Source: Planctomycetota bacterium (GTDB lineage Bacteria; Planctomycetota; Planctomycetia; Gemmatales; Gemmataceae). Taken from it: 33,948 nucleotides of DNA. Position numbers and translations under genes: made by a program. The DNA lies in the NCBI GenBank assembly GCA_016873095.1, contig VGYC01000066.1, positions 1-33,948 on the forward strand, in the 5' to 3' direction. Shown here piece after piece: positions 3,405 through 28,926 of the stretch; the first letter of the stretch is position 1; every line of letters starts with the position of its first letter. The notes below the pieces were generated by a model, which did not search any database, was not told the DNA's origin, and saw only the letters and a list, made by a program, of their open reading frames with translations.

Positions 3405-4793
3405 CTTGTCCTTCTTCTCCTTTGCAGCCGATCCCGGTCCGCCGCGGGCGAGATCGTGCCGCAACCCGGGCACCAGGCAGGCGAGGGTGAACGCGCCGTA
3501 GCAGAGCAGGACGCCGTCGAGCGGAAGGCGCGGGCCGGACAGGAGATCGGCGTGGCTCAGCAAGTACGGCAGCGGCAGCCAGATGACGGCGATGGCAGCG
3601 AGGCGGGCGGAGCGGCGCCACAGGTAGCTCCAGCGCCAGCCGATCAGGGCCAGCGGCAACATCGCCAGGACGGCGCCGGCGAGAAGAGCAGGGACAAGTT
3701 CCAGCAGCCAGTCGGGCGGCGGCGTCTCGGTGGCGCGGGCTGCGGCCGGCTCGACGAATGTGTTTCGCGTGAACCAGTCCTGTCCGAAGACGAAGTACAG
3801 GCCGGCCCAGAGCCGGCGCTGCAACGTCCCCCCCGGATTATCGACGATCTCCGGCAACAGATCCCGGCCAAGAAGAGTGTAGCGCCGGGCCTGGTTGCTT
3901 TCGGCAAGCAATTCTTGCAGTCGCTTCTCGGGCAGCGACTTGCGCAGGCCGGCTTCGCTCATTGGCCCGCCGCTGCCGGTCCGGCAATTGCCGATCCACA
4001 GGTGCAGCAAGGCCGAATCGGCGACCGGGACGGGGTGGCCAAACGTGCGGAAGTTGCGGACCGCCCACGGGGCCAGGCCATTGGCAAAGCCGAGGAACGC
4101 CAGCAGGGCGGCAAACCAGCCCTTCTTGATCTTGCGGCAACGCAGCAGATACCAGAGGACGGCCAGCGTCGCGAACGGCAACAGAGCGGCGCGGACCATT
4201 GCCAGGCCCGCGGCCGACAGGCCGAACAGCAAGCTGGTGACGGGCCCACCCTCCTGTCCGCCGCGTGTGCCCAGCGCCAGGGTGGCGGCCAGCAGAAACG
4301 TGGCGAGGACGCCGTCGTTCAGCTCCGCGGTGTTGAGGATGTAGAACGGATGCAACGCGACCAGCAGGCCGGCGAGAAAGCCCACCGCCAGACTCTGAAA
4401 GGCGCGACGCGCGAAGAGAAAGTAGCATGCTGCTGTCAGGCTGCCAAGAACGACGTGCAGCCAGCGCATCACCATCTGCGGCTGGTCCAGCCAGCGCGCT
4501 GCCTGGGCCGCAATCCAGCAGTAACCAGGCGCGCGATGGGCGGTCGTCTCCTCCTGATCGGCGAGTGGTGCCCGGCCGGCGAACGACTGCTTGTCCGTCA
4601 AGCTCTCGACGAGGGCGGCCACCTCCGACTTCTTGCCCGACTGGCCATCGACATACGGGTACGAGCCTTGCACTTCAAGAGGCGCCGGGCCGTCATCAGT
4701 GAAAGAATGCACATACCAGCCGCGGGCGCCCCCCGCCACGGCCAGGACCATCAACATCAGCAGGGCATCGCCCATGCGCCAGCGAGTTTCCAT
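3375..4793 (-). CDS. GT-C family membrane glycosyltransferase (GT39/ArnT-like)
   Basis: The 472-residue product has an N-terminal signal-anchor (residues about 9-25) and around ten further hydrophobic segments. Two landmarks point to polyprenyl-phosphate-sugar transferases of the GT39/ArnT superfamily: a periplasmic loop with HRAPGYCW (residues 86-93), and the segment APWAVRNFRTFGHPVPVADSALLHLWIGN (about 243-271), which corresponds to the common PW..RN...FG.....s.....l..GN signature. Such enzymes move a sugar from an undecaprenyl- or dolichyl-phosphate carrier onto lipid, glycan or protein outside the cytoplasmic membrane; the acceptor cannot be told here. A -10-like TATGAT lies only 6 bases before the ATG, so the mRNA may be leaderless. 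The final codons (about KTSGRPDALP) come from antisense toxin-remnant sequence, so the native C-terminus may have been altered by the same rearrangement. Confidence 0.82.
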   Translation of the reverse strand: METRWRMGDALLMLMVLAVAGGARGWYVHSFTDDGPAPLEVQGSYPYVDGQSGKKSEVAALVESLTDKQSFAGRAPLADQEETTAHRAPGYCWIAAQAARWLDQPQMVMRWLHVVLGSLTAACYFLFARRAFQSLAVGFLAGLLVALHPFYILNTAELNDGVLATFLLAATLALGTRGGQEGGPVTSLLFGLSAAGLAMVRAALLPFATLAVLWYLLRCRKIKKGWFAALLAFLGFANGLAPWAVRNFRTFGHPVPVADSALLHLWIGNCRTGSGGPMSEAGLRKSLPEKRLQELLAESNQARRYTLLGRDLLPEIVDNPGGTLQRRLWAGLYFVFGQDWFTRNTFVEPAAARATETPPPDWLLELVPALLAGAVLAMLPLALIGWRWSYLWRRSARLAAIAVIWLPLPYLLSHADLLSGPRLPLDGVLLCYGAFTLACLVPGLRHDLARGGPGSAAKEKKDKTSGRPDALP

Positions 4794-4799
4794 GCGGGT

Positions 4800-4805
4800 A
4801 TCATA
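4800..4805 (-). promoter_or_regulatory. -10 box of the glycosyltransferase gene
   Basis: Read on the minus strand, TATGAT (five of six consensus bases) ends 6 bases before the ATG at 4793, putting the predicted transcript start on the start codon itself. The -35 is poor (TTGAGC at a 19-base spacing). No ribosome site is present. Confidence 0.4.
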
Positions 4806-4964
4806 AGCGCGAAACCGCTCCCAGGCTCAATGGTTTTTCGATTTCCGTTTCCGCGCATGGATCGGCCGAAAACGGAACGCGGCAGGCGGAACACTTGTAA
4901 GTCTGTTTCCCGGCCAGTATTTTATCAGTCTCCGATTGCAACCGACCCTCAACTGGAGGTGATC

Positions 4965-5429
4965 ATGGGACGACGGATCTTGAACCGCAAAGAGATGCGA
5001 GCCGACTTCGACGCCGCCGAGCGCCGCGGCAAGGAAGAGGAAGAACGCGACGAGGATGATGAGGACGAAGACGAAGACGAAGACGAGGAAGAGGGGGACG
5101 CTGGCGACGACGAGGATGAAGACGAGGATGAGGGGGAGGACGACGAGGACGACGAGGAGGGCGGCCCAAAGAAGAAAAAGAAGAAGAAGAAAGTTGCCGC
5201 CGCCCCGAAGCCCAAGGCCAAGCCGCGCACGCGCACGGCCAAGGTCACGCGCATGCGCGTCGTCTGGGGCGTCTTCAGCAATTCCAATCAGTGCGTGGCC
5301 ACCTACGAGTATCCCAAGAAGGACCAGGCCGTCGAGCACGCCGCCAGGCTCACGGCCGACAAGCGCAGCACCCACTTCGTCCAGCCGGTCAAGGAGCCGA
5401 TGGAAGTGAAGAAGGAAAAGGAGAAATAG
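4965..5429 (+). CDS. Acidic-stretch / lysine-patch small protein
   Basis: The gene encodes 154 residues and has a clear GGAGG site 5 bases before the ATG. There are three parts. Residues 1-25 are mixed charge. Residues about 26-66 are almost entirely Asp and Glu. A run of eight lysines and a Pro/Ala/Lys/Arg linker (about 69-92) precedes a compact C-terminal domain (RMRVVWGVFSNSNQCVATYEYPKKDQAVEHAARL, then a conserved-looking TADKRSTHFVQPVKEPM). The reversal from a polyacidic to a polybasic tract gives a strongly dipolar, disordered middle, as in proteins that contact nucleic acids or ribosomes. No known enzyme motif is visible, and the C-terminal domain is the only part likely to be folded. 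The purine-rich DNA (GAGGA/AAGAAG repeats) makes the coding strand strongly asymmetric. The frame is also open far upstream, but that part is only antisense to the glycosyltransferase gene. Confidence 0.8.
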   Translation: MGRRILNRKEMRADFDAAERRGKEEEERDEDDEDEDEDEDEEEGDAGDDEDEDEDEGEDDEDDEEGGPKKKKKKKKVAAAPKPKAKPRTRTAKVTRMRVVWGVFSNSNQCVATYEYPKKDQAVEHAARLTADKRSTHFVQPVKEPMEVKKEKEK

Positions 5430-5450: not shown

Positions 5451-6737
5451 TCATGCATCATGCGCCTGAAAGCGGTTCTTGAGCTGATCCAGCTTCGGCA
5501 GACTGTCGAGCACGGCCTGCGACGATGGGCCGAAGTCGATGAGGCAGGCGATCTCCTGCACGCCCGCGGCGACCAGCTGCTTGACGAGATCCACGCAACC
5601 GTCGGGCGTACCCAGCAAGGAACGCTGTCGCAAGAACTTGTCGAAGATCCATTCGATGGCAGCGTTCAGCTCGGCAGGCGAGAGCTTGCCGATGTCGATG
5701 GGCACGTTGCGGCTCTGGGCCAGCTTCTCCAGCAGCTTCATGTTCGACTTGAGATACTCGCAGTATGGCTGATAGGCGTGCTTGCGGACCTGTTCGAGGT
5801 CGTCCGCCAGGAAAGCGTGCAGCGTGACGGCGACCTTGCCGTGTTCAGCTCCCCAGCCGTGTTTTTCCAGCGCTGCCCGGTAAATGCCGATCTTCTCCGC
5901 CAGTTCATCCACGCCTTGATCGAACAGGTGCGTGAGAACGTTGGCGCCTAGCTCGCCGGCCTTTTCAAAGGTCTTCGGGCTGCCAGCAGCGGTCAGCCAG
6001 ATCGGCAGCTTCTTCTGCACCGGCGTCGGGTAGGTGCGGATACTCACGGACTGGCCGGTGCCATCGGGATACGCCAGGCTCGCGCCGCTCCAGAGCTGTT
6101 CCACTTCCTTGATGCGCGCGAACATGGTCTCGTAGCGCTGTGCGTAGGTTCCCGGCGCGAGAGCAAAGTCCTCGGCGTTCCAGCCGGAGGCATAGGACAG
6201 CTCGACCCGGCCATTGGAGAGGTTATCGACGAGGGCCCATTCCTCGGCGACGCGAATTGGATTGTTGAGGGGCAGGACGACGCTGCCCGAGCGCAGGCGG
6301 ATGCGCTTGGTCTCGCGGGCCAGGGCGGCGTGCAGCACGGCGGGGTTGGGGAACAGGCTGCCCATGCGAGTGAAATGCCGTTCCGGCAGCCAGACGGCGG
6401 CGAATCCATGTGCGTCGGCGAAGCGAGCCACATCGATGACCCACTCGTACTTTTCGCGGGCCGCGTCCCCCTCGTCGCCGCCGAAGAACATCAAGCCGAA
6501 GTCCATGGTCGTCTTCGCCTGTCGCGGCTTGACGCGGAGTTCGGTCCATGAGCGGCGCACATAGTCGAGGCACTCGCCGCGCGAGCGTGCGGCCAGGGTC
6601 TCTCGCCAGCCCGCCGGAACCTTCATCTCCGCTGGCCATAGCGAATGCCGGCCACGCTCGTTGACCACAACGCGAAACTGTCCGGAAGCGGGATGCATCA
6701 TGGCCTCTCTTGAGATTGGATGCTGTTCCTGGTTCAT
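5451..6737 (-). CDS. MbtH-like domain fused to MupA/Atu3671-type luciferase-like monooxygenase
   Basis: The protein (428 residues) has two parts. Residues about 20-70 form an MbtH-like domain: FRVVVNERGRHSLWPAEMKVPAGW, then CLDYVRRSWTELR, which keeps the family's N-E, S-x-W-P, P-x-G-W, C-L and W-T-[DE]-x-R positions. MbtH proteins bind and activate the adenylation domains of nonribosomal peptide synthetases. From residue 76 (TMDFGLMFFGGDEG) to the end is a flavin-dependent luciferase-like monooxygenase of the MupA/Atu3671 type (LPERHFTRMGSLFPNPAVLHAALARETKRIRLRSGSVVLP, NNPIRVAEEWALVDNLSNGRVELSYASGWNAEDF), a class known from within or beside NRPS/PKS genes. The gene overlaps the upstream synthetase by ATGA, so the two are made together. 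An internal ATG pair at 6701/6698, preceded by AGAGAGG, is an alternative start that keeps the MbtH part. Likely role: assist adenylation and oxidise a carrier-bound or released intermediate (inference). Confidence 0.88.
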   Translation of the reverse strand: MNQEQHPISREAMMHPASGQFRVVVNERGRHSLWPAEMKVPAGWRETLAARSRGECLDYVRRSWTELRVKPRQAKTTMDFGLMFFGGDEGDAAREKYEWVIDVARFADAHGFAAVWLPERHFTRMGSLFPNPAVLHAALARETKRIRLRSGSVVLPLNNPIRVAEEWALVDNLSNGRVELSYASGWNAEDFALAPGTYAQRYETMFARIKEVEQLWSGASLAYPDGTGQSVSIRTYPTPVQKKLPIWLTAAGSPKTFEKAGELGANVLTHLFDQGVDELAEKIGIYRAALEKHGWGAEHGKVAVTLHAFLADDLEQVRKHAYQPYCEYLKSNMKLLEKLAQSRNVPIDIGKLSPAELNAAIEWIFDKFLRQRSLLGTPDGCVDLVKQLVAAGVQEIACLIDFGPSSQAVLDSLPKLDQLKNRFQAHDA

Positions 6738-9700
6738 GCCTGGTAGACGGCGCAGATCACTTGCACGCCGGCAGCGACTTCGATGAACAGGGCCTTCTCG
6801 CCCTTGCGGAGACCGGCGTTGTCGCGCAGGTGGGCGAGGCAGTGGGCCAGCGACGATGTGAACAGATCCTTGTCGCGGCCAAGGTCCAGGCAGCGCTCTG
6901 CCGGACTCTCGAGAGCATCGGCAATCGCCTTGCGAAAATCACGGCCGGCCTGCGGCGGCACGATCCAGCGGAAGTCGGAGAGCTTGCGTTTCTCCCGATC
7001 CAAGAACTCGGCCACGACGTCGCGCACACACCCGGCAACCCGCTGATGCCAGTCCGGTATCTGCTTCTGGAAGACCACCGGCAGATCGTTGTTGGCGCCG
7101 GTGTAGCACTCGCGTGCCTGGACCAAGTCCGGGAAGGCGAGGGCGCCGAAAGAGATGAACCCCTGGCCGGTGGCGCTGCTCTCCAGCACGAGCGCCGACG
7201 CCGTCTCTTCCAGGCCGAGCAGATGTTCCGGCCAGGTTTGCGCGTTGGTCTCCACCTCGGACGCCAGCAAGAGCGCTCGGCCATTCTTGCCGTGACTGAT
7301 GAGTTCGCTGGCGATGAGCGCGGCCGTCAGCGCGCCGGCGGCGCCATTCATGAGGTCGAGAGCCAGCGTGCGCCGACCGTCCGGCGTTTCGTCGTCGTGA
7401 TTGATCCTCAGTTCGCCGGCGGCGATGGCGGCCAGGGCCGGCTCGCTCAGGTAGTCGGTGCGGTACACGCCGGCATGCAAGACCAGGTCGATCTCAGCGC
7501 GTGCCCGCGATGATACCTGCAAGCACGCCTCGCCGGCCTGTCGAAGCATGGCAATGGTGTCCGCCGCTTCGCCGGCGGCCGCCGGCGTGCCATCCTGCTT
7601 GAGCGGACCGGAAATCGTGCCGATACTCTCCACCTGGACCGGGCGGGGAAGATTCAGGACACGCAGCTCGCCCGGCTTGTCGGTCTTCTCCGGCAGCGGT
7701 TGCTCGATGGGCTCGCGGAGCCGGACCGGCAGGTCATCGAACTTGTAAAGCGCAGTGCCGACCGTTTGCCCGGAGCCGCTGACAGCGAACAGGACGCGGT
7801 CCCCCGGCTCGATATCACCGGCCTGGATGCGTTCATAGACGGCAAGAAAGTGGGTGTTGGTAGCGGTGTTGCCGCGCTCCGCGACGTTGAACACGGTGTT
7901 GCCGCGACTGACCACCTGCTTGCCCAGGGCGCGGTTGATCTCGCGAACCGCGCCGTCCAGCGTCGTCTCCGAGGTCTGGTGCATGATCAGCGCGTCGATG
8001 TTTTCCGGCTCCCAGTGCATGCGCCGCAGCACTTCGACGGCGTGGCTGACCTCCTGCCGGATGGCGACCGCGGTGGCCTTCACGGGATCGGTGTACATCA
8101 TGGCGCCGCCATGAGCCTCGCGCGTCATCTTGGCGACGCACAGGTCGTGATACTTGCCGAGTGTGTACAGCTCGATTTCCTGAAAGCCCACGTCCGTTGT
8201 GGGCGCCTGCTCGAGGATCAATGCGACGCCGGAATCGCCGAGCGTCAGGCACGGCAGCCGCGAGTCCATGAAGTTTTCAATCTCGAGCTGGGCGACGCGT
8301 GTCAGGTGCGTGATGTATTCGCCGCTGACAACCATGGCGCGGCGGATGACCTTGTTTCGCAACAGCCCATCCGCCAGGGTGAGCGCGGTGAAGGTGCCGG
8401 CGCAGGCATTGGTGATGTCGAATGCCAGTGCGTTCACCAATCCGAACTTGTTGCGCAACCGCGAGGCGGTGGTCGGCTCCATGCCGAAACGGAAATTGGG
8501 ACCGTCGAAGCGCGAGATGTTGCAGCAGATGAGCAGGTCGATGTCTTCCGGCCGATGGCGCGTTCGGCGCAGACACTCGGTTGCCGCATTCTCGGCCAGG
8601 TTGATCGAAAACTCGTCCTCGGCCACCACGCGGCGGCTGCGGATGCCCGTGAGACGTTCCAGCGGAAAGTCGAGCTTCTTGCGGCAGCCCTCGATGACGT
8701 CCGTAGTAGTCAACACCTGCTCAGGCAAATAGACGCCGATGCTCTCGACGACGGCGCCAGCAACCGCAATGTCCTTTGAGCGCTCGCGCTGCGGACTGAC
8801 GGCTGCTTCCGCCAGGATAACGGGCTTTGCCTGCGCGGTGGGCGCTGCGGGAGCATGCACGCCATTGCTCAAGGCCCCATTGACGGATCCACAGGCAGCG
8901 GCCAGGTCGGCGACCGTCTGATAGCGAAAGATCATTTCCGGCTCGAGGGCCATGCCGCGGGCGTTGGCCAGCGATACGACTTCGAGGGTCTGAATCGAGG
9001 CGCCGCCCAGGTCAAAGAAGTTGTCGTGCACGCCGAACTTGTCGGTGCCCAGAACTTGCTTCCAGACTTCCCAGAGCAGCGTTTCGGTCGAGTTGCGCGG
9101 CGCGACGATCTCGCGCTGTGCCGCATTGGCATCGGCACTCGGTTCCGGCAAGCGCTTGCGATCCACCTTGCCATAACCGGTGAGCGGAAACGACTCGAGC
9201 GGCATGATTGCCGCCGGCAGCATGTAATGAGGCAGGCGCTCGCGCAGGAAAGCGCGTACTTCGCCGATCGGAAAATCGGCGACGCTCCTGGGCACGACAT
9301 AGGCGGCCAGCGCCGGCTGGCCGTTGTCCTGGCGGGCGAGCACGACGGCATCGGTGACGGCCGGATGCCGCCGCAAGACTTCCTGTATTTCTTCCAGCTC
9401 GACGCGATAACCGCGAATCTTGATCTGATGGTCTGTGCGGCCCAGGAACTCCAGTTCGCCGCATGGGTTCCAGCGCACCAGATCGCCGGTCCGGTACATG
9501 ACGGCATCGTCGGACGCATCGAATGGATTGGGGACGAAGCGCTCCGCCGTCAGCTCGGGCTGATTGAGGTAGCCGGCGGCAATGGTCGGCCCGGCCACGC
9601 ACAACTCGCCGGCCACGCCGATCGGCACCGGTTGCAGCCGGCGATCGACAACGTAGACGCGCACGTTGGGAATCGGCTTGCCGATCGTGGGTGGCTTGCC

Positions 9701-12076
9701 GTCGAAATCCTTCACCTCCTTGCAGGTGGCCCAGACCGTTGTTTCGGTGGGACCATAGAGGTTGAAGAAGCGCCGACCCTTTGACCAGGCCGCCGCCAGC
9801 TCCGCTGGACATGCTTCGCCGGCGACCTGAACATTGCGAACGGACGGCAACGCGTCGGGGGGCAGCGCCGCCAGCGCCGATGGCGGCAGGACGGCGGCAG
9901 TTATCTGCTTGTCGGCAAACAGCTTCACCAGTCCGGGACCGGGCAGCGTGGACGCCTGTGTCCCCATCACCAGGCTGGCGCCCGCCGTCAAGGCCTGCGT
10001 GGTCTCGAACACCGAGGCATCGAAGCTGAACGATGCAAATTGCAGCAACCGATCTGCGGCAGCAAGGCCAAGCTCACGCAAGGACCGCGACATGGCGCAC
10101 AGTCCACGATGCCGCAGCAGCGTCCCCTTGGGTTGCCCGGTTGAGCCTGAGGTGTAAATGATGTACGCGATGTCGTCCGCCGACCGGCTCAGATCGAGAT
10201 TCTCAGCCGCAAGTTTGCTAATCGCATCCCAGTCGCTGGGCAACATGACGGTCGGCAAGGACAGTTCCGGGACCTGCTGTGGCGCGATCAGCACGGCCGG
10301 CTGCGCATCGTGCACCATGCCCGCCAGGCGCTTTGGCGGATACGCCGGATCGAGAAACATGTAGGCGGCGCCGGCCTTCCAGGCGGCCACGATGGCGACG
10401 ATGATGTCCGGTCCGCGCGGCAAGCTGATGGCGACTCTGTCGCCGCGCTTCGTGCCCAGCCCCTGCAGATGCCGGGCCAGTTGATTGGCGCGGCGGTTCA
10501 GCTCGCCATAGGTGATCGTCCGATCCTCGAACAGGATGGCCGGCGCTGCCGGCGATTCGCTGACGCGCTTCTCGAAAAGATCGTGCCAGCAGCCGTCCGG
10601 ATACTCTGTCCGGGTCTGATTCCAGTCCACCAGCATTTGCTGGCGCTCGGCGGCGTTCAGGATCGGAATCTGGCTTAATGGCAGGTCAGGCCGAGCCAGG
10701 ACCTCGTCGAGCAGGGTGTCAAAGTGGCCCGCCATGCGCTGAATCGTCTCGGCGTCGAACAGGTCGGAGTTGTAGCGGTAGCTGGCAGTGAGCGTGTCGC
10801 CGATCTCGAAGACGATGAAGGTAAGATCGAACGGCGCGCCGCGCTGCTCCATGAGCAGCGGCTCCATCTTCAGCGCCTTGCCGTTCAGCTCGGCGCCATT
10901 GCCGGACGAGGCGTCCAGCTCGCGCGGCTTGTCCCAGATGAACACCGTCTGGAAGATCGGCGACCGGCTCGGATCGCGCTGCGGCTGCAACTTCTTGACA
11001 AGCAAGCCGAACGGGAAGTCCTGGTGATCCAGCGCCTGATGCACCTGATCGCGCGTTCGCTCCAGCAGTTGCTCGAAAGACAGATCACTGGAGAAATCGG
11101 CCCGGAGCACAACCTGATTGAGGAAATAGCCGACGAGCCGCTCCCACTCGGGCCTGCCACGGTCAGCGACCGCAGTACCGACCAGCAAGTCGTCTTGCCC
11201 GGTAAGCCGGTGCAGCATGAGCTGATAGACCGAGAGCATCGCAATGAAAGGCGTAACGTGTCGCTCTTTCACCAGGGCTCGCAGTTTCCTGGCAGCGTCA
11301 GGCTTGATCGGCCGGGAGTAGGCGGTGCCGTTGTAAGTCTGCACGGGCGGGCGCGGGCGGTCCGTCGGCAGGCTCAGCACCGGCAATTCGCCGCCGAGCA
11401 CCTGCTGCCAGTAGGCCAGCGCTTTCTGGCCGCGCTGTCCATGCACTGACACCGTCTGCCATCGTACGAAGTCGGCGAACTGCCCGGTGACGGCCGGCAA
11501 GGCGGCTTTTCTACCGGCACGCTCCGCGTGATAGAGCTCTTTCAGCTCCTGCACGAGCAGGTCCGCGGACCAGAGGTCGGCGATGATATGATGAAACACC
11601 AGCAGCAGGACATAGTCGCTGGCCGATTTCTTGAAGAGCTCGATGCGCAAGGCCGGCCCGCGTTCCAGGTCGAACGGCTCGTCGGCCCGCTTGCGGGCGA
11701 AATCCAGCAGCCGCTCGTCAGACCAGCCGGCCGTGTCGGTGATCGGGATGGGGATTTCGAGGCGCTCCTCGATCACCTGCGCTGGCTTGTTGTCCGGCGC
11801 GATGAAGCGGGTCCGCAGCGCGTCGTGGCGTTGCGTCAGGGCCTGACAGGCACGAACGAATGCGTTGTAGTCGAGAGCGCCCGGGATGCGCACCGCATAG
11901 AGAAAATTGTAGGCGGGACTCTTGGGCGCGAGCTGGTGTACAAACCAGAGCGATTGCTGCCCGTAGGAGAGCGGGATGGGGCCGCGAGCGTTGCCGTCAC
12001 GCAGGCTCAGGAGATTTTTCAATAGCTCCCGCTTATCCTCGACGGAGAGCGTCTCCAGCCGTTGCGCTTCTGTCAT
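6734..12076 (-). CDS. NRPS C-A-T module fused to a KASIII domain and a degenerate KASIII-like domain
   Basis: This large protein (1780 residues) starts at the ATG at 12076, which has AGGAGC 4 bases upstream; an in-frame TTG 12 bases earlier is part of that ribosome site. Domains in order: condensation (about 30-480, with HHIIADLWS at 162-170); adenylation (about 490-985, with TSGSTGQPKG at 642-651, NLYGPTETT at 772, YRTGDLVRW at 861, IRGYRVELEE at 887, and the catalytic Lys970 in GYGKVDRK); carrier (LGGAS, phosphopantetheine Ser1027); KASIII/FabH-like condensing domain (about 1104-1450) with Cys1225 in NACAGT, His1366 in IMHQTSE and Asn1403 in ERGNTATNT; then a second KASIII-like half (about 1470-1780) in which the Cys position is Ala1579 and the His position is Pro. 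There is no thioesterase, reductase or epimerase. Reading the adenylation pocket against PheA gives D-A-F-V-Q-A-L-V-W-K, which I cannot assign to a substrate. Expected chemistry: activate one amino acid, join it to an incoming acyl group, then extend or release it at the KASIII domain. Confidence 0.92.
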   Translation of the reverse strand: MTEAQRLETLSVEDKRELLKNLLSLRDGNARGPIPLSYGQQSLWFVHQLAPKSPAYNFLYAVRIPGALDYNAFVRACQALTQRHDALRTRFIAPDNKPAQVIEERLEIPIPITDTAGWSDERLLDFARKRADEPFDLERGPALRIELFKKSASDYVLLLVFHHIIADLWSADLLVQELKELYHAERAGRKAALPAVTGQFADFVRWQTVSVHGQRGQKALAYWQQVLGGELPVLSLPTDRPRPPVQTYNGTAYSRPIKPDAARKLRALVKERHVTPFIAMLSVYQLMLHRLTGQDDLLVGTAVADRGRPEWERLVGYFLNQVVLRADFSSDLSFEQLLERTRDQVHQALDHQDFPFGLLVKKLQPQRDPSRSPIFQTVFIWDKPRELDASSGNGAELNGKALKMEPLLMEQRGAPFDLTFIVFEIGDTLTASYRYNSDLFDAETIQRMAGHFDTLLDEVLARPDLPLSQIPILNAAERQQMLVDWNQTRTEYPDGCWHDLFEKRVSESPAAPAILFEDRTITYGELNRRANQLARHLQGLGTKRGDRVAISLPRGPDIIVAIVAAWKAGAAYMFLDPAYPPKRLAGMVHDAQPAVLIAPQQVPELSLPTVMLPSDWDAISKLAAENLDLSRSADDIAYIIYTSGSTGQPKGTLLRHRGLCAMSRSLRELGLAAADRLLQFASFSFDASVFETTQALTAGASLVMGTQASTLPGPGLVKLFADKQITAAVLPPSALAALPPDALPSVRNVQVAGEACPAELAAAWSKGRRFFNLYGPTETTVWATCKEVKDFDGKPPTIGKPIPNVRVYVVDRRLQPVPIGVAGELCVAGPTIAAGYLNQPELTAERFVPNPFDASDDAVMYRTGDLVRWNPCGELEFLGRTDHQIKIRGYRVELEEIQEVLRRHPAVTDAVVLARQDNGQPALAAYVVPRSVADFPIGEVRAFLRERLPHYMLPAAIMPLESFPLTGYGKVDRKRLPEPSADANAAQREIVAPRNSTETLLWEVWKQVLGTDKFGVHDNFFDLGGASIQTLEVVSLANARGMALEPEMIFRYQTVADLAAACGSVNGALSNGVHAPAAPTAQAKPVILAEAAVSPQRERSKDIAVAGAVVESIGVYLPEQVLTTTDVIEGCRKKLDFPLERLTGIRSRRVVAEDEFSINLAENAATECLRRTRHRPEDIDLLICCNISRFDGPNFRFGMEPTTASRLRNKFGLVNALAFDITNACAGTFTALTLADGLLRNKVIRRAMVVSGEYITHLTRVAQLEIENFMDSRLPCLTLGDSGVALILEQAPTTDVGFQEIELYTLGKYHDLCVAKMTREAHGGAMMYTDPVKATAVAIRQEVSHAVEVLRRMHWEPENIDALIMHQTSETTLDGAVREINRALGKQVVSRGNTVFNVAERGNTATNTHFLAVYERIQAGDIEPGDRVLFAVSGSGQTVGTALYKFDDLPVRLREPIEQPLPEKTDKPGELRVLNLPRPVQVESIGTISGPLKQDGTPAAAGEAADTIAMLRQAGEACLQVSSRARAEIDLVLHAGVYRTDYLSEPALAAIAAGELRINHDDETPDGRRTLALDLMNGAAGALTAALIASELISHGKNGRALLLASEVETNAQTWPEHLLGLEETASALVLESSATGQGFISFGALAFPDLVQARECYTGANNDLPVVFQKQIPDWHQRVAGCVRDVVAEFLDREKRKLSDFRWIVPPQAGRDFRKAIADALESPAERCLDLGRDKDLFTSSLAHCLAHLRDNAGLRKGEKALFIEVAAGVQVICAVYQA

Positions 12077-12268
12077 GATGCTCCTCAAGGCACTCTGGTC
12101 GCAGCGCTCCTCAGCGCGGCTCCCTGGCGCGATTCCTTGATGCCCTTGATGCGAACGCGGGCGCGCTCTGGCTCGGGCTCAGTCCCTTGAGGTGCGTCCA
12201 GAACCGGCTATTTCGGGCGACAACGGGCGGGCCGCTGACAGGCCCTAGATCGCCGTGCGAGACTACCA

Positions 12269-25242: not shown

Positions 25243-25947
25243 TCACTGCCGAAGGAGAGTCGTGAGGGCGGTCGCCCGTGCGGAGGGCAAGCTTGCCTGT
25301 TCGCTGTGACCGAGATGTCGTTGCGCTTCTGGTAGGAATTGACGCAGGAAGGTCATGGCCGGATCCGTTTCCAGGGGCTCCTCGACATTTTCCATGCGAT
25401 GGATGACATAGAGCTTGTAGAGGGCAGGATAGCGGGCCAGGCTGAAGCGGGCGTTGTCAGGAGCCATCCAGCGGCCATCGCCGTTCCAGGACCAGAAAAT
25501 CCGTAGCGCTTCTGGAACCGCGGCCCGCGGCTTGTGAAACTTGCCAACCTTGAAATCGACCGGTCCGGGCAGCGAGGCCACTTCCAGCTTGTGGGACAGC
25601 GCCGGTCCATCCTGGCTGAAGCCCGCTCCCGGATAGCAGACCTCCGGCGTATGCAATGACGTGGGTCCGGCACGGCCGCACACCAGCAACAGCGACAGCT
25701 GCTGGCCCGTCACACGATGGACATAGCGTCTCACCAGGTAGCCGTCGATCTCGCCCTTGGCGACTTGCCGGGCATCGAGTTCGCGTTCCTCGCCGCGCCA
25801 GTCGCCGACATGCAGCGGGACGCTCTTGAGTCGCTCCGCCGCCAGGCGGACGGCCGCGGATGCCTGCCAGCGATGCGTCCAGCGCCCTTCGACGACGCCG
25901 TAGCCGGCTACCAGCCCGATCGCCAGCAATAGTGGAAGCAAGCGCAT
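25243..25947 (-). CDS. Exosortase-associated EpsI-like protein
   Basis: The 234-residue protein has an N-terminal membrane helix (residues about 3-19) and an exported domain. The diagnostic motif is SLHTPEVCYPGAGF, with His99-x-Pro and Cys104-Tyr105, the same H-x-P-x-x-C-Y pattern seen in EpsI/DUF3485 proteins fused to, or encoded beside, exosortases. WGG-like elements around residues 48-52 (GDWRG) and FWSWNGDGRW (about 151-160) also fit the family. Its role is not settled; association with exosortase and polysaccharide export is established by gene neighbourhood. It starts 3 bases after the exosortase stop (TGA-TCC-ATG), which indicates translational coupling, and the TPR gene follows 4 bases later. 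Confidence 0.9.
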   Translation of the reverse strand: MRLLPLLLAIGLVAGYGVVEGRWTHRWQASAAVRLAAERLKSVPLHVGDWRGEERELDARQVAKGEIDGYLVRRYVHRVTGQQLSLLLVCGRAGPTSLHTPEVCYPGAGFSQDGPALSHKLEVASLPGPVDFKVGKFHKPRAAVPEALRIFWSWNGDGRWMAPDNARFSLARYPALYKLYVIHRMENVEEPLETDPAMTFLRQFLPEAQRHLGHSEQASLPSARATALTTLLRQ

Positions 25948-25950
25948 GGA

Positions 25951-26958
25951 TCAACCCGTTGCCTTTCCGCCGGTCATGGTCGCGCTGCTTGCCCGGGCCA
26001 TCATGGTCTCTTTCGCCGCCATCCTCGGCAAGGCGGTCCTCGTCAACGTGCCAGGGATCCTCACGATTTCCGGATCCCGGACAGGAAGATCCACCACCAG
26101 CCAGGCGAACAGCCGCATTTCCGCCCACAGCATTGCCAGGGCCAGCGGCATCATCAGCCAGCCGAACAGGTCGTGAAAGACGTAATCCGCCCACGCGCTG
26201 CTGACCGTCTTGTGCAGCACTGCCGTGACCACGATGCGAATGATGTTCGCCGCCAGGGCGATCGGTATGGAACTGGCGAAGATCAACGCCTTCTCGCCCC
26301 ATGGTCTGTCCACGACCAGACACACCGCGGTCGACAGGGCGAAGAAGATCATCAGCATGCTCAGCCCGCTGCAAGCCTCGACCACGCCGATGCGGACCGG
26401 CCCCATGCAAATGACGTTGCCTTCGGAGAAAGCCGCCACGCCCAGCGTTTGCAGGATGTACGTGCTTGCCAGCGTGGCCACGCGCTGCAGTGGATAGGCC
26501 AGCCCCGTCTCGATGCGGTGCGGCAACGGCAGCATGAAGATCAGGAAGGCAATTGCCGGCCAGGACCAGTGCAACGCCCGCCAGCCCCCCGCGAGCAGGC
26601 ACGCCCCCGCCAGGCATGGCAGCAACGCGAGGCCCTGAAGCCAGTCAAGATAGATGTAAGTTCCGAAAAACCGCAGTGCCAGCCCGCCAGCAAGGATCAG
26701 CAGGCCCCAGCCAGTCGGCTGCAAGGCGGCCAGCAGGTCGCGTCGCCGCCACAGCAGGTACAGCGAAAATAACGGCACCGCGTAGCCATGCGAGTATTGC
26801 GAATCGGTCCGCCATCTCCCGGCCACGTCCAACAGCGTCGGCCAGTAGACCCACAACAGACCGACGCCAAGAACAAACGTTGCCAGCTTCCGCGGACAGC
26901 GGCCAAATGAGGCAGCGGCCAGCCAGAGCCGATCGGTCTTCAGAGTGGCGACGCTCAT
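25951..26958 (-). CDS. Exosortase
   Basis: This 335-residue multi-pass membrane protein of the exosortase/archaeosortase family has about eight hydrophobic segments. The three conserved active-site residues are all present: Cys196 in GVVEACSGLSML, Arg241 in ALAANIIRIVVTA and His262 in YVFHDLFGWLM. Exosortases are transpeptidase-like enzymes that recognise PEP-CTERM tails and anchor or release the substrate during export. A likely substrate is encoded at 27674-28465 in the same direction. The EpsI-like protein follows directly. A low-complexity C-terminal tail (about 295-335) is not part of the catalytic core. I recall a planctomycete exosortase subclass with an EpsI partner, but I cannot assign this protein to a subclass with confidence. 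Confidence 0.93.
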   Translation of the reverse strand: MSVATLKTDRLWLAAASFGRCPRKLATFVLGVGLLWVYWPTLLDVAGRWRTDSQYSHGYAVPLFSLYLLWRRRDLLAALQPTGWGLLILAGGLALRFFGTYIYLDWLQGLALLPCLAGACLLAGGWRALHWSWPAIAFLIFMLPLPHRIETGLAYPLQRVATLASTYILQTLGVAAFSEGNVICMGPVRIGVVEACSGLSMLMIFFALSTAVCLVVDRPWGEKALIFASSIPIALAANIIRIVVTAVLHKTVSSAWADYVFHDLFGWLMMPLALAMLWAEMRLFAWLVVDLPVRDPEIVRIPGTLTRTALPRMAAKETMMARASSATMTGGKATG

Positions 26959-27206
26959 GACGGCACGGCAAGACTGCGGGGCGGATGTTCGGGCAACACG
27001 GCAAATCTCCGTAGATCAAATTTCATGCCGCCGGCGAGCGCAAAACGCGAGTCGTTTGATTTGTAGGGCAAATCGAGACTTGCAACGATGCCGCAATCAT
27101 CGGCGCTGGTTGACATGTGTCACGGTTGGTTGACAGTTTGCCGTGGTTGGGAAGATTGTAGGCAGTGGATCCATCTTCTGGATCCGCTATCGAGTGAAAA
27201 GATAAG
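26959..27206. promoter_or_regulatory. Region before the exosortase operon: TTGACA repeats and hairpin
   Basis: Between the exosortase start and the lipoprotein-like gene's stop lie two copies of GGTTGACA 20 bases apart (27108-27115 and 27128-27135), an interrupted palindrome TGACATGTGTCA (27111-27122) and a hairpin (see 27164-27188). I see no clear -10 box for the exosortase operon, which may therefore be transcribed from the PEP-CTERM gene upstream. No gene is present. Confidence 0.4.
27164..27188 (-). terminator. Hairpin after the lipoprotein-like gene
   Basis: GGATCCA (27167-27173) and TGGATCC (27179-27185) are exact complements around a 5-base loop, and three flanking pairs (one wobble) extend the stem to 10. 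It begins 18 bases after the minus-strand stop at 27207. There is no T-tract. It could end, or only attenuate, the PEP-CTERM operon transcript. Confidence 0.45.
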
Positions 27207-27677
27207 TCACGGGCGGGGCCGTGGCTCCAGGAAAATGTCGCAATCTAGCTCGATCGTATCCTGGTGGCTAATCGTAACATGCCCCTTGACGGAGGCGCCA
27301 TGCTCTGGAGATCGCGGCAAGTGTAGTGCCAACTGCAGCAGGTTGTCCCGGTCGAAGCGGATGAGGACGGTATCGCTCTCTAGCTGCACTGTTGCGCCCT
27401 TGGCCAGGACGCCGCGCGATATGCCCTTGTCGCGCAGCAGAGCGCACTCCGCCGGTTTTTCCGGCAGCGACAGATCGTAGTGCAGATAGGGATAGGGCAA
27501 CGGCTGGCCGTCGCCCGCTGTCATGCCCCAGTAGCCACGATAGCACTCAGGAATCAGATCCAACTCGGTCCTTTTTTTCACTTCGACGGGCACGGGAGCT
27601 TGCCGCGGCTGGTTTGTCGGTGCGCAAGCCACCGCAATCATGCCGGCGATGATTGGCGAAGACAGGCGTACGTTCAC
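27207..27677 (-). CDS. Small lipoprotein-like protein coupled to the PEP-CTERM gene
   Basis: This 156-residue protein starts at a GTG at 27677 that overlaps the stop of the PEP-CTERM gene (GTGA), so it is probably translated by coupling. The N-terminus (RLSSPIIAGMIAVACAPTNQ) is hydrophobic and ends in a lipobox-like AVAC with Cys18, suggesting a lipid-anchored secreted protein; the lipobox is imperfect. The mature part begins with a Pro-rich spacer. It continues with KRTELDLIPECYRGYWGMTAGDG, then strands such as ATVQLESDTVLIRFDRDNLLQLALHL and a final HVTISHQDTIELDCDIFLEPRP, which looks like a single beta-rich domain. I recognise no family. Its place beside a PEP-CTERM protein suggests it belongs to the same cell-surface system. 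Reading further upstream in frame only covers the neighbouring gene. Confidence 0.72.
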   Translation of the reverse strand: MNVRLSSPIIAGMIAVACAPTNQPRQAPVPVEVKKRTELDLIPECYRGYWGMTAGDGQPLPYPYLHYDLSLPEKPAECALLRDKGISRGVLAKGATVQLESDTVLIRFDRDNLLQLALHLPRSPEHGASVKGHVTISHQDTIELDCDIFLEPRPRP

Positions 27678-28465
27678 GCGGCCATCCTCATACGCCTTCG
27701 TCTGATCCACAGCAATCCACTGCCGGCGGCCAGCAGTGCGATGGTTGACGGCTCCGGACATGGCGTCAGATCGCTGTCCTTCTCGGCCGTCCAGTCGCCG
27801 AAGCCGCTATTCGCCAGCGCAGTCGCGATGGTGGTCATGTCGCCAGCAGTGGGCAGACCATCGCCATTCTTCTTCTTGAGCGATGTGATATCCCCCTTAT
27901 CGCCGGTGGCCCATTCGTAGCCGGCGATGACGCTGAACTTCTTGTCGCCGAGTTCGACGATCAGCCACGTGTCAAACTTCGCTCCCACGACCGTGGGCGC
28001 ATCACTGATGTGGTATTTCTTTGTCTGACCTGCCGTCGTGTTCTCGGTTTTTTCCTCTTCCGCGTTCCAGTACCATGGGAGGAAGTCATCGGTGGCCTTG
28101 CCGCCCTTTGTGGATTTATAACCTCCATAAACTGGATCGACGATTGGCGGCTTCAAAGCGTCGCCATCGAATTTCGGATTGGTGTCACTTGCAGTCAACG
28201 CGGTGACGACCTGGAACCAGTGAAACTTGAAACAATCCAGCAACGGCAGCACCGCTGCGTTCGTCGTGAAGAGCCCCTCCATCACGACATTGTCTTCGGT
28301 GCCCTTGGTGGTTGTGGCTGTGATCTTGCCAATGTCGGTCGACACGCCGCCGATTTTCAGCTTCACGGGATCGATTGTTATCGAGTCCGCGTGAACGCTG
28401 CCGACGACGGCCAGAATGACTGCGAGGGCCATGGTTGCGACAACGGCCAGCCTTTTCCGGTGCAT
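27674..28465 (-). CDS. PEP-CTERM sorting-domain protein
   Basis: This 263-residue protein has a signal peptide (MHRKRLAVVATMALAVILAVVGSVHA) and, at the other end, a classic PEP-CTERM tail: a CPEPST motif (from about residue 236), a hydrophobic helix (IALLAAGSGLLWI) and an arginine cluster (RRRRMRM). The central domain is acidic and lysine-rich with no catalytic motif and several beta-like segments (KFDTWLIVELGDKKFSVIAGYEWATG). Proteins with this tail are the substrates of exosortases, and one is encoded downstream in the same direction. The ATG at 28465 has AGAAGG a few bases upstream and fits the signal peptide; open frame upstream of it lacks such a site. A 7-bp hairpin lies in its leader (28509-28525). 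Confidence 0.93.
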   Translation of the reverse strand: MHRKRLAVVATMALAVILAVVGSVHADSITIDPVKLKIGGVSTDIGKITATTTKGTEDNVVMEGLFTTNAAVLPLLDCFKFHWFQVVTALTASDTNPKFDGDALKPPIVDPVYGGYKSTKGGKATDDFLPWYWNAEEEKTENTTAGQTKKYHISDAPTVVGAKFDTWLIVELGDKKFSVIAGYEWATGDKGDITSLKKKNGDGLPTAGDMTTIATALANSGFGDWTAEKDSDLTPCPEPSTIALLAAGSGLLWIRRRRMRMAA

Positions 28466-28926
28466 GATCCTTCTCCAAGATTGAGAGTCGCGCGTGCATA
28501 AGCGCAACGGCTCCCACGGGGAGCCCAACGCGTCTCCGGTCCGATATGTCGCAGCGAAACGGTAAGTAGACTGGCATTTCCCGTGCCGGACATGGACCGA
28601 ATTCGATCCTCGGCTGCTGCCCGCGAAAAACCAGGAAGACATGAAAACGTCTCGCCCAAGCAACTCCGTCGTAGCGGCGAAGTGTAAAGAAAACATGTCA
28701 AGGACGCTTGACACATCAGCTCAGGGTGAACGGTCGCCAACATCAGGGGTCGATGGCTGCTTCTTGCAAATCCGCGGCCATTCGCAAGCTGCGGAACCTG
28801 GTCAAAGCAAGCAAGGTTGTCCTGACTTGCCTAGGATAATGATTGAACAAATCGTTCGCGAAGTTCCGATAACGACAGCAGAGTGTGAAAACCCTTGGGT
28901 TTCTGGGTCAAAAAGGGTAAATCGCC
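28466..28926. promoter_or_regulatory. Divergent intergenic region of the PEP-CTERM and export genes
   Basis: This 461-base region separates two divergent starts. It holds a perfect hairpin GGCTCCC/GGGAGCC with a 3-base loop (28509-28525), a sigma54-like sequence TGGCATTTCCCGTGC with correct GG-N10-GC spacing but a mismatched -12 (28572-28586, plus strand), and an exact inverted repeat TGTCAAGGACGCTTGACA (about 28695-28712) that looks like a dimer-binding operator. No gene is visible. The function of each site is inferred from form only. Confidence 0.4.

Follow-up and report, generated by a model that had tools for sequence, protein, structure and literature searches.

The window (the whole 33,948-nt stretch of DNA that was analysed) carries on its minus strand a 428-aa open reading frame that encodes, as one polypeptide, an MbtH domain and a luciferase-like monooxygenase (LLM). 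The features of this gene and of the synthetase gene that it follows are given in Table 1. In the Pfam search, the MbtH profile PF03621 matched residues 18-61 of the fusion protein with 66.3 bits, far over the cut-off of 27, and Bac_luciferase matched residues 78-394 with 169.7 bits. TIGR04020, the MupA/Atu3671 family and thus the LLM subfamily known from natural-product pathways, aligned over its full length (profile positions 1-341 of 341) with residues 80-420 and scored 465.7 bits (cut-off 244). The fusion gene was the sole MbtH found by a genome-wide profile search of the 8.4-Mb genome (70 bits), and the fusion protein alone exceeded the TIGR04020 cut-off in this genome. An earlier note on this DNA had placed an MbtH signature at the N-terminus of a flavin monooxygenase encoded directly after the synthetase with an ATGA overlap; the profile search bore out the homology and the domain order, and the overlap was confirmed. 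Elsewhere on the minus strand (25243-28714), translations read by eye gave an exosortase-like membrane protein (25951-26958), an EpsI-like protein (25243-25947) and a protein with a C-terminal PEP-CTERM-like tail (27674-28714). On the plus strand, ORF 3456-5429 ends (about 4960-5429) in codons for a highly acidic run (DEDEDEDE) and then poly-Lys; this part may be a small gene of its own that converges with the fusion gene.

Table 1. Positions in the window of the fusion gene, its partner synthetase and their parts.
Feature	Position	Strand	Basis or remark
MbtH-LLM fusion gene	5451..6737	-	428 aa; 60% identity to the G027 fusion
TIGR04020 (MupA/Atu3671 family) FMN-dependent LLM domain, residues 80-420	5478..6500	-	profile, 6KET match
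End of MbtH region and short interdomain linker, residues 62-79	6501..6554	-	Pfam/NCBIfam domain borders
MbtH domain, residues 18-61	6555..6686	-	PF03621; interface tryptophans Trp34 and Trp44 present
ATGA stop/start overlap, synthetase gene/fusion gene	6734..6737	-	same overlap in G027
Partner synthetase, 1784 aa: C-A-T, then KASIII, then KASIII-like	6734..12088	-	Pfam, NCBIfam, active-site motifs
Degenerate KASIII-like domain, residues 1480-1784, NGAAG for NACAG (no Cys)	6737..7651	-	no separate Pfam N-terminal match
Active-type KASIII domain, residues 1112-1450, NACAG/MHQ/RGN (Cys-His-Asn)	7739..8755	-	
Adenylation domain of partner synthetase	9167..10576	-	PF00501, PF13193
Pro853 of partner A domain, at Trp-pocket contact position	9530..9532	-	ERFVPNPF vs FVADPF

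The PDB matches of the fused MbtH domain were MbtH structures (2khr, 8gic, SlgN1, ObiF1 and YbdZ). Its motif string reads NERGRHSLWP...PAGW...WTELRV. Compared with the consensus NxExQxSxWPx5PxGW...L...WTDxRP, which includes both pocket tryptophans (PMC6668435), the N, the S, both W, both P, the G and the L were retained, and the E, the Q, the D of WTD and the final P were altered; the fused MbtH domain of ObiF1 likewise has no WTDxRP. Instead of the usual free-standing form of about 70 aa, MbtH is here the N-terminal domain of a 428-aa protein. Because natural MbtH fusions are known, this state is a variant trait and does not exclude the domain from the MbtH family.

The joining of two genes by misassembly or a frameshift, or an internal start giving a plain oxygenase, had to be weighed against a real fusion. 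The internal starts at 6701 and 6698, which the earlier note had raised as a possible objection, correspond to Met13 and Met14. Both come before the MbtH domain, whose first residue is 18, and trim 12-13 residues only, therefore leaving the whole domain in place; the Shine-Dalgarno-like sequence was better at the 6701 start (AAGAGAGG). In this genome, translation from the ATG of Met78 (6504-6506), at the beginning of the oxygenase, could yield an oxygenase alone. However, no ribosome site was visible upstream of it, and the residue is Ile in a second fusion, at L029:12309-13568 in G027, a genome from another genus of the same family. A search for other MbtH-LLM fusions and their neighbours had found this one further case, 60% identical to the fusion in the window and lying behind an orthologous synthetase gene with the same ATGA overlap. 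The G027 MbtH domain scored 50.6 bits against PF03621 and was the only MbtH in that genome; the LLM domain scored 466.7 bits against TIGR04020. The G027 linker was longer and divergent, and ALWP stood in place of SLWP (Ser to Ala), but both tryptophans of the A-domain pocket were kept in both fusions. Since fusion, overlap and synthetase recur in a second genus, in an independent assembly and at 60% identity, the fusion is not an assembly error. Between the two fusions the MbtH parts were 56% identical (dN 0.40, dS 1.38, dN/dS about 0.29) and the LLM parts 61% identical (dN 0.33, dS 1.38, dN/dS about 0.24), ratios that are rough because synonymous sites are near saturation. Purifying selection is similar on the two domains, and the MbtH part is clearly maintained. 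This selection on the MbtH codons also speaks against an artefact, a reading that is largely refuted and that we consider extremely improbable.

MbtH was present in two of the 95 genomes of the family, fused in both. An MbtH match was found in 19 of 397 genomes in the class-wide search and in 7 of 392 in the phylum-wide search; beyond the two fusions, no MbtH frame in these searches (about 790 genomes) was long enough for a fused oxygenase. No place in 72,556 plasmid records matched both halves of the fusion, and a scan of viral contigs gave no relative. A contig scan across genomes, with patterns that reach close relatives only, returned one unfused LLM relative. Outside Planctomycetota, coverage consisted of this close-relative scan, the plasmid records and the viral contigs. 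The fusion is real, and it is rare among the Planctomycetota genomes searched. Two candidates were rejected: a 389-aa frame around MbtH in G585 was a shadow frame of an NRPS ahead of the start of a free-standing MbtH, and a Methylosinus match (H16) from residue 53 onwards was the N-terminal oxygenase of a PKS protein, where Pfam found no MbtH. Weak MbtH-like fragments broken by stop codons, possibly decayed MbtH genes, were seen at L027 (G316) and L028 (G100). A literature search whose coverage left out most subscription papers found no description of an MbtH-luciferase fusion.

The partner synthetase has C, A and carrier domains in one chain (Pfam), that is, an NRPS C-A-T module. Of the two KASIII copies behind it, the first has all the Cys-His-Asn catalytic residues and the second is without the Cys; distant PDB matches of the tandem include PqsC. 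The G027 orthologue of the synthetase was 53% identical over 1794 aa. Around the G027 gene pair lie genes for a FAAL-ACP-KS-AT-methyltransferase-ACP synthase, another FAAL-ACP protein and a fatty acid desaturase, and orthologues of both FAAL proteins (52-54% identity) were found in the window's genome on other contigs. A sister module on contig C68 has C-A-T with a separate tandem KASIII protein, and no LLM or MbtH. Near its end, contig C68 (L035) also holds a second PKS-NRPS region; its 3537-aa PKS-NRPS protein is divergent from the C-A-T and tandem KASIII genes of the sister module. The tandem of an active-type and a Cys-less KASIII (window 6737-8755, L029, L035:16304-18370) thus occurs either fused after C-A-T or as a separate gene. 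A lipo-amino-acid product is suggested by the related parts, and the product is likely to be an acylated amino acid or a short lipopeptide. The A-domain substrate codes, read by hand at the GrsA positions, are DAFVQALVWK-like in the window, a code of unclear specificity, and DAYTIAAVCK-like (Phe-like) in G027; they serve as leads only. The stieleriacine clusters were considered for the N-acyl amino acid theme and set aside; neither a luciferase nor a monooxygenase nor a ketoacyl synthase is mentioned in the 2025 paper.

In complexes of MbtH with A domains, two tryptophans of MbtH take up between them an alanine of the A domain, Ala433 in SlgN1 and Ala841 in ObiF1 (PMC6668435). When mapped through the SlgN1 and ObiF1 numbering, the contact position was the third residue of FVADPF. 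Pro rather than Ala stood there in each of four A domains: the partner A domains of the window and of G027, and the two on C68. Ala was rare, at 2 of about 23, in planctomycete A domains from genomes mostly without MbtH. Beside SLWP-type MbtH genes the contact residue was Ala in 24 of 24 A domains and beside SIWP-type MbtH genes it was Pro in 10 of 11, counts that take repeated modules of one gene separately and amount to about 12 and about 5 loci. The sample for this pairing comprised loci L042-L071, L106-L107 and L123-L132 together with window 9530-9532. A pairing of SLWP with Ala and of SIWP with Pro is a possible rule for MbtH and A domains. The fused SLWP (window) or ALWP (G027) with Pro fits neither class. 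Pro at the contact is not prohibitive, however, because SIWP-type MbtH genes sit beside Pro-type A domains in planctomycetes.

The earlier note had further suggested that the fusion tethers the oxidase to the A domain. Adjacency, the presence of both domains and the kept Trp pair agree with this; the contact residue, Pro in both partners, does not. Tethering of the oxygenase to the A domain is likely but unproven. Binding between MbtH and the A domain is plausible, given that both tryptophans are kept, but would have to be non-canonical at the Ala/Pro position, or else the partner is another one, since SLWP or ALWP with Pro falls outside both classes. MbtH might be a docking or solubility domain, non-canonical for the partner A domain, that binds either a different surface or some other adenylating enzyme of the pathway, such as a FAAL or the A domains of C68. 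Pro at the contact in all four A domains and the mismatch with both pairing classes favor such a partner. Against it, the fusion gene overlaps precisely this NRPS gene in both genera, and Pro-type A domains occur beside SIWP-type MbtH genes; on balance we regard it as unlikely. An AlphaFold monomer of the fusion with one homologue had a mean pLDDT of 45, and the structure was left out of all readings.

The closest LLM (57%) is encoded on a Leptolyngbya plasmid, where it forms the first domain of a PKS protein placed after a FAAL-ACP-KS-AT protein. At the same place (L057:6883-16605), the LLM separates the two halves of a PKS dehydratase domain, across a gene boundary. The best solved match of the LLM domain was the PuwE oxygenase (6KET, 381 bits), which is proposed to place a 2-hydroxyl on a FAAL/PKS-made chain (PMC4219810). 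LLMs of the TIGR04020 subfamily have been described as alpha-hydroxylases or Baeyer-Villiger type enzymes that act during chain assembly (PMC8739492). With the nearest oxygenases sitting inside FAAL-PKS modules and in PuwE, oxidation of a carrier-bound intermediate is plausible and is our best guess; from the relatives we infer FMNH2-dependent action on a carrier-bound natural-product intermediate. Oxidation on the assembly line, as the earlier note had supposed, is thus favored by the FAAL/PKS-embedded oxygenases and PuwE, with the type of reaction taken from these relatives. A simple gene fusion would leave the tether without function: MbtH would activate the A domain, and the oxygenase would separately oxidise a free precursor or the finished product. 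Some TIGR04020 proteins are indeed free-standing beside NRPS/PKS genes without MbtH, and in the ichizinone cluster MbtH and LLM are both free-standing. By contrast, fusion and gene order have been conserved here over a divergence deep enough to bring synonymous sites near saturation, and the nearest relatives of the oxygenase are themselves integral to synthases; we give a functionless tether a rather small chance.

The explanation that we prefer, with a probability of roughly 0.5, is a bifunctional helper-oxygenase in which MbtH docks the LLM on the partner A domain and the LLM oxidises the carrier-bound chain. MbtH would bind the A domain of the 6734-12088 synthetase and so hold the oxygenase where the FAAL/PKS-made acyl chain passes to the NRPS module. 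There the oxygenase would oxidise, most likely alpha-hydroxylate, the carrier-bound acyl or acyl-aminoacyl thioester before the chain is completed or released by the KASIII pair. The MbtH adaptor would stand in for the covalent link by which the closest relatives are held within PKS modules. In favor of a helper-oxygenase are the intact domains; the fusion, ATGA overlap and partner conserved in two genera; the selection on MbtH; its being the only MbtH in both genomes; the Trp pair; the closest oxygenase in a FAAL-ACP-KS-AT module; the likeness to PuwE; and the FAAL genes around the G027 pair. Further, the fused MbtH of ObiF1 acts on a non-adjacent A domain (PMC6668435). Against it are the contact Pro in both partner A domains, the Ala of G027 at the Ser of SLWP, the location of this genome's FAAL-PKS genes on other contigs, and the C68 sister module without MbtH or oxygenase. 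More tentatively, and somewhat short of an even chance, MbtH may be a portable adaptor for docking, one that brings a tailoring enzyme acting in trans to an NRPS module, with the interface shifted to a Pro-type A domain.

An MbtH-oxygenase fusion bears on why MbtH proteins exist at all, apart from their help in A-domain folding, and is a direct natural test of whether MbtH can position other enzymes on the assembly line. If true, MbtH as a docking adaptor would be a second role beyond activating adenylation. The fusion itself would be a part ready to use for directing tailoring enzymes to modules of choice. The pairing of Ala or Pro with SLWP or SIWP offers a checkable rule for the fit between MbtH and A domain.

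Like SlgN1 and NikP1, the protein is a natural MbtH fusion in an NRPS pathway with the Trp pair kept. In those two, however, MbtH is N-terminal on the A domain that it activates, whereas here MbtH is joined to a tailoring oxygenase, the product of the next gene. In ObiF/ObiF1 (C-A-T-TE-MbtH), MbtH sits on a non-neighbouring domain and still activates the upstream A domain; it is C-terminal on the synthetase itself with contact Ala841, compared with a separate oxygenase and a contact Pro here. The LLMs of PuwE, palmerolide and Leptolyngbya NIES-3755 belong to the same oxygenase subfamily as the fused LLM and share with it the proposed alpha-hydroxylation on a carrier; for PuwE and Leptolyngbya, a FAAL-started chain is a further common trait. 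These LLMs are covalently part of the synthase, while the one described here is a separate protein with an MbtH domain. The ichizinone cluster has the same two functions in one NRPS cluster as two separate genes, here joined in one polypeptide. The fusion is thus a variant of the known MbtH fusions (SlgN1, NikP1, ObiF1), and the first found that puts MbtH on a tailoring oxygenase.
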